Of a stretch of 64,000 nucleotides of DNA, positions 28,701-31,592 are shown piece by piece. The notes beneath the pieces are model-generated. The model was not told the origin of the DNA, ran no database searches, and saw only the letters and a list, made by a program, of their open reading frames with translations. The position numbers and the translations under genes are program-made. Origin of the DNA: Malus domestica (lineage: Eukaryota; Streptophyta; Magnoliopsida; Rosales; Rosaceae); assembly GCF_042453785.1 (NCBI RefSeq), contig NC_091673.1, positions 4,099,501 to 4,163,500 of the forward strand, in the 5' to 3' direction. Position 1 is the stretch's first letter. Each line of letters starts with the position of its first letter.

Positions 28701-31592
28701 CAGCCTTCTGATGTTTATAAATTTTCATTTATATAGGGACCACGAAAACATTCAGAATTTGTCTTTCATCAACCAGATATTGTTTTATTTCGTAATTTAT
28801 TTAAAATTGTATTAATATCAATTGTACTTTTGATATGATACACAATTATTTGAGGAATATGGTTATAAAAAAACAAGTTATTTACATGTTTTACCTTCTG
28901 ATTTTTGTCAGTACGAAGGTGCAGTTAAAGAGGACGGAAGGGGGCCTTCTATCTGGGACACCTTTTCACATACTTTTGGTAATAATTTGTTAATTTATGG
29001 TCAATCTTTTGTTTTACTTCTAAATTATTTTTTACCAGTACTTTGGAACATTTATCAACTACACAGTATCTCACTCATCACATGATCATTAAATAAGAAG
29101 GAAGACACTCGTATATATATTTCATGTGACACTCAAATCGTCCATGTTTTAGGAAGCAATTCAAAAATATATAACACTTAATGCATACGGATAATTTGCC
29201 TTGTGCTACAGGTAAAATAGCCGATTCCAGTAATGCAGATGTTGCTGTAGATGAGTATCACCGTTATAAGGCAAGTCTGGTACTCAAAACTACCCTTTGC
29301 ATTTTCTTTGTTAAATCGAGCAAATGTTAAGTTAGTTGCAAGCAGGAGGATGTGCAACGTATGAAGGATATGGGAATGGATGCTTACAGATTTTCGATAT
29401 CCTGGACTCGGATTTTCCCCAGTAAGTTCTATTAGTTCTATGAGTTCATATTTACTTCACATACAAGATTAGTTCATCAAATTTTAACTGCGAGCTTTTC
29501 GTATATCAGATGGAACCGGACACATTAATCAGGCGGGTGTTGATTACTACAATCGTCTCATCGATGCATTGCTAGCCAAAGGTGCCATACATTTTCATTT
29601 TTCTCCAGAATATTGTATGTACTTCCGACTTTTGCATTAAGCTCCGTCACAATTGTTAATGGCAACGGAGAAATTTGGCATCGAACGTTTATTTATCAGG
29701 ATGGAATCATGGACTGAACTATGAGATTCTGTATATGCAGGAATTGAACCGTATGTGACCCTCTATCACTGGGACCTCCCTCAAGCATTGGAAGACAAAT
29801 ACAGCGGGTGGCTCAACCCTCAAGTCATGTAATCTCAACGTTGACAGTTTTGTGCCTATAATTTCCGTAAGTTTGATTAACGATGAGTTTTGGATTCGAG
29901 TGATTCATATGGCCTTAGTCTATTGCAGAAAGGACTTTGCAACATATGCGGACGCATGCTTTCAAAATTTTGGTGACAGGGTGAAGCACTGGATCACATT
30001 CAACGAGCCACATACATTTTCTATACAAGGATATGATGTAGGGCTCGAGGCACCGGGAAGGTGCTCTATCCCCCTTTTCCTTTTCTGCAGGGCAGGAAAC
30101 TCGGCAACTGAGCCTTACATGGTTGCTCACAATGTCATCCTGTCTCATGGAACCGCGGCTGATATTTACCGGAGAAAGTACAAGGTAAGAATGATGGAAT
30201 GGAGAAATATTCATGCGCGTAACTATTAACAACAGAAGTTGATTAATGATACTACTTGGTGTCTTCGCAGTCAAAACAGCGTGGATCGGTTGGGGCATCA
30301 TTTGATGTTATCTGGTATGAATCAGCAACAAACTCGACAGCAGACGTCATTGCAACTAAAATAGCCCAAGATTTTCAGCTTGGCTGGTAATCACAAATTT
30401 GATTTTATTACTTAGTTATATTTGACTAGGAACTGCGTTATAATTTGTGTAATCACTATGTTGGAACGGCAGGTTTCTTGATCCATTTATGTTTGGGGAT
30501 TATCCAAGCTCTATGAGAAGTAGGGTTGGAAGTCGGCTGCCAACCTTTTCCAAATCCGAGTCTGCTCTAATTAAAGGGTCCTTGGATTTTGTGGGCATTA
30601 ATCACTACACTACCTTCTATGGAAGCAACGATACCGCTGATATAATTGGACATCTACTCAATGACAGCCTTGCAGACTCTGGTGCCATTACTCTTCGTAA
30701 GTACTCACATTGAACGCGCTGCATATTCCTCTTAACAGTTCTATGTTCCAGTTATTCCATAAGTTGTCGGAATCACCAATTCAGAGATTAAAGACCAACT
30801 TATTAGAGTTCCGTAACTTGTTATCATTTAAATTTCCGTTGTTAGCTGAAGATATCTTTTCTTTTTCCATGTTTTCAGCATTCAAAGACGGAAAACCTAT
30901 TGGCGATAGGGTATGTAGTGTAGTTAAACTCTCATAAATTACTGCAATTTTTACTTGATCCGACATGAAAGCTTGTGTGAAATTGCAGGCGAATTCTATA
31001 TGGTTATACATAGTGCCAGAGGGGATGAGAAAATTAATGAACTACATTAAGAAAAAGTACGGCAATCCTCTAGTGATTATCACTGAAAATGGTAATGTTT
31101 CGAGTTCCAAATAGAAGGGATGCGACGTCCAAAAGTTCTTCATGTTCACGGGACATTTCATGAGTTAAACTTGTTGGTTTCATTATTTCCACAGGCATGG
31201 ATGACCCGAATAGCCCATTCATTTCTCTCAAGGATGCTCTAAAGGATACTAAAAGGATTAAATACCACCATGACTATCTTAAGAATTTGCTAGCTTCGAT
31301 CAAGTATTAACCATCTTTAATTAATCCGCTAGCTATGAATCTACTTTTTCTTGTCCATATTTTGTGGTGTAAAAGCTGATATCATTCTGTCTTCGTTGAA
31401 TGCAGAGAAGACGGCTGCAATGTGAAAGGCTATTTTGCTTGGTCTCTGCTGGATAATTGGGAATGGGCGGCTGGATACACTTCTCGATTTGGTCTCTATT
31501 TTGTGGATTATAAGGACAAGCTCAAGAGATACCCAAAGGACTCCGTTCAATGGTTCACGAAATTCTTGAATTCTACTCAAACAAGGCAATGA
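25721..31592 (+). CDS. BGLU40: GH1 beta-glucosidase, BGLU40-like, copy 1
   Basis: Family 1 glycoside hydrolases release glucose from beta-glucosides such as phenolic or hormone conjugates; the substrate here is unknown. Thirteen exons: 25721-25867, 28912-28978, 29212-29270, 29346-29421, 29510-29581, 29741-29828, 29929-30184, 30271-30386, 30473-30696, 30879-30910, 30989-31091, 31195-31303 and 31406-31592; 511 residues. A signal peptide ([20 protein letters not shown]) suggests secretion or vacuole targeting. The acid/base motif TFNEP (Glu196) and nucleophile motif ITENG (Glu412) are intact, as are [11 protein letters not shown] and [13 protein letters not shown]. The intron after exon 3 begins with GC (AAG|GCAAGT), a GC-AG intron. 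Intron 1 is ~3.0 kb because two transposons (26360, 27463) sit in it. The name rests on synteny with Arabidopsis BGLU40 (At1g26560, from memory), next to UGD1. Confidence 0.93.
26091..26225 (+). mobile_element. tRNA-derived SINE-like fragment in intron 1, copy 1
   Basis: An A-box-like TAGCTCACTTGATTAAAAG and a B-box-like ATTCCGAGTTTGACTC lie ~45 bp apart, followed by a short tail. The copy in unit 2 is at 40977-41110, so insertion came before the duplication. Confidence 0.5.
26360..27222. mobile_element. hAT- or Mutator-like element in intron 1, present only in copy 1
   Basis: 863 bp flanked by a perfect ACTTAAAAG repeat (26351-26359 and 27223-27231). Unit 2 has a single ACTTAAAAG followed directly by GCAAAAAGTAC, which is the empty site. 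The right end on the other strand is AGGGGTGGTATTGGTACAAT. The interior is full of GGTA/TACC words and has no transposase. Confidence 0.75.
27463..28401. mobile_element. Mutator-like MITE with internal GGGTACA repeats, present only in copy 1
   Basis: About 939 bp flanked by the 9-bp duplication TTTTTAAAA (27454-27462 and 28402-28410). The inverted ends share TTGACTAAAACCTTATTGG-like and TTTTCAATTTTTGATCAA words over ~85 bp. Between about 27715 and 28210 the motif ATGGGTACA recurs many times in AT-rich spacing. Unit 2 lacks the whole element. Confidence 0.75.

Follow-up and report, generated by a model that had tools for sequence, protein, structure and literature searches.

The tandem GH1 beta-glucosidase genes in the window (the whole 64,000-nucleotide stretch of DNA analysed here) very probably underwent a single recent non-crossover ectopic (interlocus) gene conversion between copies 13 kb apart. 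The block concerned is identical in the two genes and shows near-normal mutability, its flanks are divergent on both sides, and the genome matches include no other near-identical copy of it. Gene conversion was already the explanation offered in the original prediction, and it is the best one now that an outgroup test with the homoeologous gene on C16 and a permutation have been added. The conversion reading draws on one genome, in which two copies are compared with one outgroup, and either copy may have been the donor.

The tandem genes and their identical tract

Self-BLAST of the window, C13:4099501–4163500, delimits a head-to-tail tandem duplication on the + strand, with a first unit at 20459–36577 and a second at 36578–49926; the aligned blocks pair 20459–36582 with 36578–49926. 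Each unit carries one gene with an intact open frame. Copy 1 (25721–31592, + strand) encodes 511 aa and copy 2 (40613–44642, + strand) 514 aa, while the C16 homoeolog encodes 511 aa. The exon model of copy 1 was read by eye from the sequence, checked, and then mapped through alignment to copy 2 and to the C16 homoeolog, the end of copy 2 being computed by hand from the mapped exons. Both copies possess 13 exons, counted from the ATG in exon 1 to the stop in exon 13, which is the layout typical of plant GH1 genes. Across the twelve introns of all three genes the acceptors are AG and the donors GT, with the exception of intron 3, a GC-AG intron whose GC donor lies at 29271 in copy 1 and 42313 in copy 2 and is also found in the C16 homoeolog. 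A 1-bp insertion near the end of copy 2 alters its last residues.

A domain scan of copy 1 placed Pfam PF00232 (Glyco_hydro_1) at residues 33–506 of 511 (E 1.8e-159, 531.5 bits), and the best PDB match of this copy was the rice Os03g0212800 protein (3gno, E 8e-261), known as Os3BGlu6. The likeness to the rice protein extends over residues 27–504, a full-length match that includes both catalytic motifs and shows no notable difference. The strings TFNEP and ITENG, the acid/base and nucleophile motifs, respectively, occur in the translations of both copies. Judged by their sequence, both copies are intact GH1 beta-glucosidase genes with predicted enzyme activity.

The maximal identical block extends from 30350 to 31561 in copy 1 and from 43391 to 44602 in copy 2 (both + strand), 1,212 bp without interruption at a constant offset of 13,041. 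According to the exon model, it starts in the middle of exon 8, includes exons 9–12 and introns 8–12 in full, and runs nearly to the end of exon 13, leaving 31 bp of copy 1 up to and including the stop codon. The first differences between the copies lie at 30349 on the left and 31562 on the right. Within the nine aligned blocks of the duplicated unit this is the longest exact match, the next longest being 165 bp. The original prediction had set the tract at 30350–31559 with five introns inside; the right end proved to lie two bases further out, and the intron count agrees with the exon model. The roughly ten changes that it described at 29929–30270 were counted as 11 substitutions and one indel, and its figure of about 4% for the changes continuing through the 3′ UTR stands beside 5.0, 4.0, 9.0, 3.5 and 2.6%, measured from 31562 to 32515 in five consecutive bins, none longer than 200 bp.

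The exact match may understate the exchange. On the left, a possible extension at 30267–30349 (+ strand) is identical for 82 bases and ends in a copy-2-specific change at 30349; on the right, a possible extension at 31562–31585 (+ strand) begins with one copy-1-specific change at 31562 and is then identical up to a 1-bp indel. Only the single difference at 30349 lies between the block and another identical run of 82 bp, so that conversion may originally have covered about 30267–31585 (1,319 bp), with two later substitutions.

The flanks at 28912–30349 and 31562–32515 contain 104 differences at 2,388 aligned sites. At this rate about 53 differences would be expected in the tract, and none was observed. 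The original prediction had expected about 35 differences, based on 3% divergence. The Poisson probability of zero differences is approximately 1e-23, and about 4e-19 when overdispersion is allowed for, as fitted to 23 of the 25 non-tract 101-bp bins after removal of two edge bins in which 50 and 51 sites aligned; none of the 25 bins was free of differences. The three-way alignment with C16 over 28912–31680 provided 319 variable columns, 58 of which separate copy 1 from copy 2, for a purpose-written GENECONV-like permutation (not GENECONV itself). The observed run of 121 concordant sites was reached in 0 of 100,000 permutations, the permuted maximum being 68. An identity plot and a conversion statistic with an outgroup had been called for in the original prediction, and both the binned identity and the permutation with C16 support the tract.

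Divergence from the C16 homoeolog and selection on the genes

Zero divergence between paralogs might arise if strong purifying selection, or a mutation rate that is low locally, held the block identical, and the C16 homoeolog bears directly on this explanation. In the tract, 121 of 1,211 sites set C16 apart from both copies alike, and in the left flank 135 of 1,343 do so (Fisher p = 1.0). At the same sites the copies differ from each other at 0 of 1,211 and 54 of 1,343, respectively. The left-flank differences of this second kind comprise 21 copy-1-specific, 25 copy-2-specific and 8 three-way changes; the tract has none of them. Between the copies, identity in the tract is complete for introns and exons alike, and the noncoding sites of the tract show 0 of 550 differences between them, against 69 of 550 relative to C16. 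Because C16 differs from both copies to a similar degree in the tract and in the left flank, the block mutates about normally, and the common ancestor of the copies is, on this sequence comparison, much younger in the tract than in the flanks.

A slight reduction in divergence from C16 does lean toward constraint or a low rate: divergence of copy 1 from C16 is 10.0% in the tract (121 of 1,211 sites) and 12.2% in the left flank (164 of 1,343; p = 0.078), or, for noncoding sites, 12.5% (69 of 550) and 15.9% (103 of 646; p = 0.099). Exon sites gave 52 of 661 and 61 of 697 (p = 0.62). A small share of the effect could be due to local rate, but far too little to account for zero differences between the copies. 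The block is not frozen between the copies, because many changes have accumulated in it relative to C16, and dN/dS in the tract is an ordinary 0.25. The outgroup comparison refutes constraint or a low mutation rate as the source of the identity, and the probability left to this explanation is negligible. Interlocus conversion is recognised by an anomalously identical block in paralogs, by normal divergence on both sides, and by the insufficiency of constraint or low mutation rate, and all three were found here.

The original prediction had also assigned the block a role, namely to keep the exon of the catalytic nucleophile the same while exons 1–8 were free to diverge, and dN/dS does not support this. 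In the exons left of the tract, dN/dS between the copies is 0.16 (281 codons), indicative of purifying selection. Relative to C16, dN/dS is 0.25 in the tract (219 codons) and 0.24–0.27 to its left, and stronger constraint on the half of the gene with the nucleophile was not seen in this comparison. A selective role for the block need not be invoked.

Faster protein change in copy 2 was also considered. Comparison of 507 of 512 codons between the copies, which omits the final codons near and beyond the copy 2 insertion, yielded 23 that differ, of which six were set aside as not polarisable against C16. In a hand count, nonsynonymous and synonymous changes numbered 6 and 5 in copy 2 and 1 and 5 in copy 1, which does not establish a difference between them (p = 0.30). 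It is very unlikely that the conversion rescued a decaying duplicate by restoring a working catalytic half and then spread by selection, although the present state of the genes, with both open frames intact and no differing base in the converted stretch, is compatible with such a rescue.

Origin and age of the probable conversion

Tandem copies that are nearly identical are a known trouble spot for genome assembly, and the sequence of one copy might have been written into both places during assembly or polishing. Several observations argue against such an artefact. The block is merely 1.2 kb long, while the units are resolved elsewhere, with 803 substitutions at 12,127 aligned sites over the whole unit (the tract counted among the sites). 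In addition, the window contains 0 N, and the block is bounded on both sides by single copy-specific bases. The HiFi reads of a published apple assembly, which may differ from the assembly of the window, average 15,495 bp and would span the block (PMC11631450). We regard an assembly artefact as an unlikely source of the identity.

Unequal crossing over occurs in head-to-tail arrays and can mimic conversion, such that two unequal crossovers, or a three-copy history followed by loss, could leave the same mosaic. An island of this kind would, however, require breakpoints at two places separated by 1.2 kb, and the array would have had to revert to two copies; one conversion is the simpler account, and the genome matches include no third copy of the tract other than the C16 homoeolog. 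Such a history is therefore highly improbable. All eight whole-genome matches to the tract were scored. Three are full length, namely copy 1, copy 2 and C16 at 89%; the remaining five of the eight cover 52–147 bp, and no third genomic copy that might have served as donor for both genes was found among them. The C16 homoeologous region has one copy of the gene within the 30 kb examined.

We propose that a unit of roughly 13–16 kb was duplicated in tandem on C13 after the C13/C16 homoeolog split, and that the two copies would then have drifted to about 4–5% divergence over the gene. After a break in one copy, repair would have used the other as template and overwritten approximately 1.2 kb. Repair most likely proceeded by synthesis-dependent strand annealing or through a double Holliday junction resolved without crossover. 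From the pattern of identity we infer this repair pathway, the occurrence of a single event and its recency. Non-crossover conversion is favoured because the island has two breakpoints, both of them within homologous sequence (first differences at 30349 and 31562), and because the copies lie in the same orientation 13 kb apart. Each of the six 15-mers tried as breakpoint repeats occurs once or twice on the + strand of the window and 0 times on the − strand; for three of them there are two occurrences, one at each gene copy.

The second longest identical run of the unit, 165 bp at 25472–25636, lies just upstream of the start codon. Comparison of this run with C16 revealed 17 differences at 156 sites and 35 gap columns, and a short second conversion at the promoter is therefore possible. 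The aligned block at 28401–32518, which contains the tract, is 3.7% divergent with the tract and 5.3% without it. Divergence in the eight remaining aligned blocks is 5.8–11.8%; two of these fall partly or wholly in the 5′ part of the gene. Three of the blocks exceed 10%, with transition/transversion ratios of 2.0–2.6. We do not claim a second, older layer of conversion over the whole gene, because repeats and methylation could be the source of the blocks above 10%.

Noncoding divergence left of the tract (Jukes-Cantor) is 0.053 between the copies and 0.18 to C16, and the tandem duplication would be roughly 0.3 as old as the C13/C16 homoeolog split. The observation of 0 differences in 1,212 bp sets a 95% upper limit of 0.25%, approximately 6% of the flank divergence, and the age of the conversion would not exceed about 6% of that of the tandem duplication.

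Neighbouring sequences and relation to known conversions

Downstream of both genes lies a DUF632 fragment (PF04782, found in unit 1), at 32095–32520 and about 45152–45580. Its nearest relative is C15:6897473–6897896 (15 of 430 sites different from copy 1), with a C8 sequence farther away (41 of 430), among the best 40 of 61 candidates. The same best 40 of 61 candidates include no match at the homoeologous place on C16, and because of this the fragment probably derives from the C15 gene, captured between the homoeolog split and the tandem duplication. As a second yardstick, the fragment has 17 differences at 429 sites between the two copies and 15 at 430 between copy 1 and C15, in each case about 4%. 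In unit 2 the fragment runs on at 45589–45715 into a second piece of the C15 stretch (L014:1703–1825) with approximately 190 bp skipped, which could represent a lost intron or a deletion. Unit 1 has a short direct repeat at the corresponding point (32514–32737).

Decayed fragments of a GH1 last exon are present at 33364–33471, with an internal stop, and at 46096–46146, about 1.8 and 1.5 kb downstream of the intact genes; they are perhaps a relic of an older beta-glucosidase copy. Elsewhere in the window, 53385–54265 is 84% identical to its own reverse complement and forms part of a long near-palindrome at 53373–54337, possibly a foldback transposon. The near-palindrome lies within 53099–55186, a stretch without a listed match in the C16 region.

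Homogenised coding parts and promoters with a different history have been described for tandem plant paralogs at HMA4 in Arabidopsis halleri (PMC3749932), and the genes studied here resemble that system. The HMA4 account concerns recurrent conversion, with population data and positive selection on promoters, whereas the present case involves one event in one genome, with no evidence of selection. In rice, a GENECONV survey reports that conversion between paralogs on the same chromosome becomes less frequent with physical distance and is not tightly linked to selection; it quotes 40 kb as the largest distance between partners in Arabidopsis and describes the rice value as similar (PMC2277409). 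The rice conversions averaged 130 nt, with about 66% under 100 nt (PMC2277409). The tract is long, yet not unheard of, because the range in that survey is 4–1,237 nt; its alignments are apparently cDNA-based, whereas the present 1,212 bp, close to the upper limit of that range, were measured on genomic DNA and include introns (PMC2277409). Among the titles listed in a literature search, none concerned this locus or conversion between plant beta-glucosidases.

The process itself is known, and the understanding of gene conversion is unchanged by this case. What is new is a clean recent example, with sharp boundaries, introns included and a single homoeologous outgroup. Within the tract, short reads are not assignable to either copy. 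The 3′ half of these genes, where divergence is zero, would yield erroneous gene trees and duplication dates.
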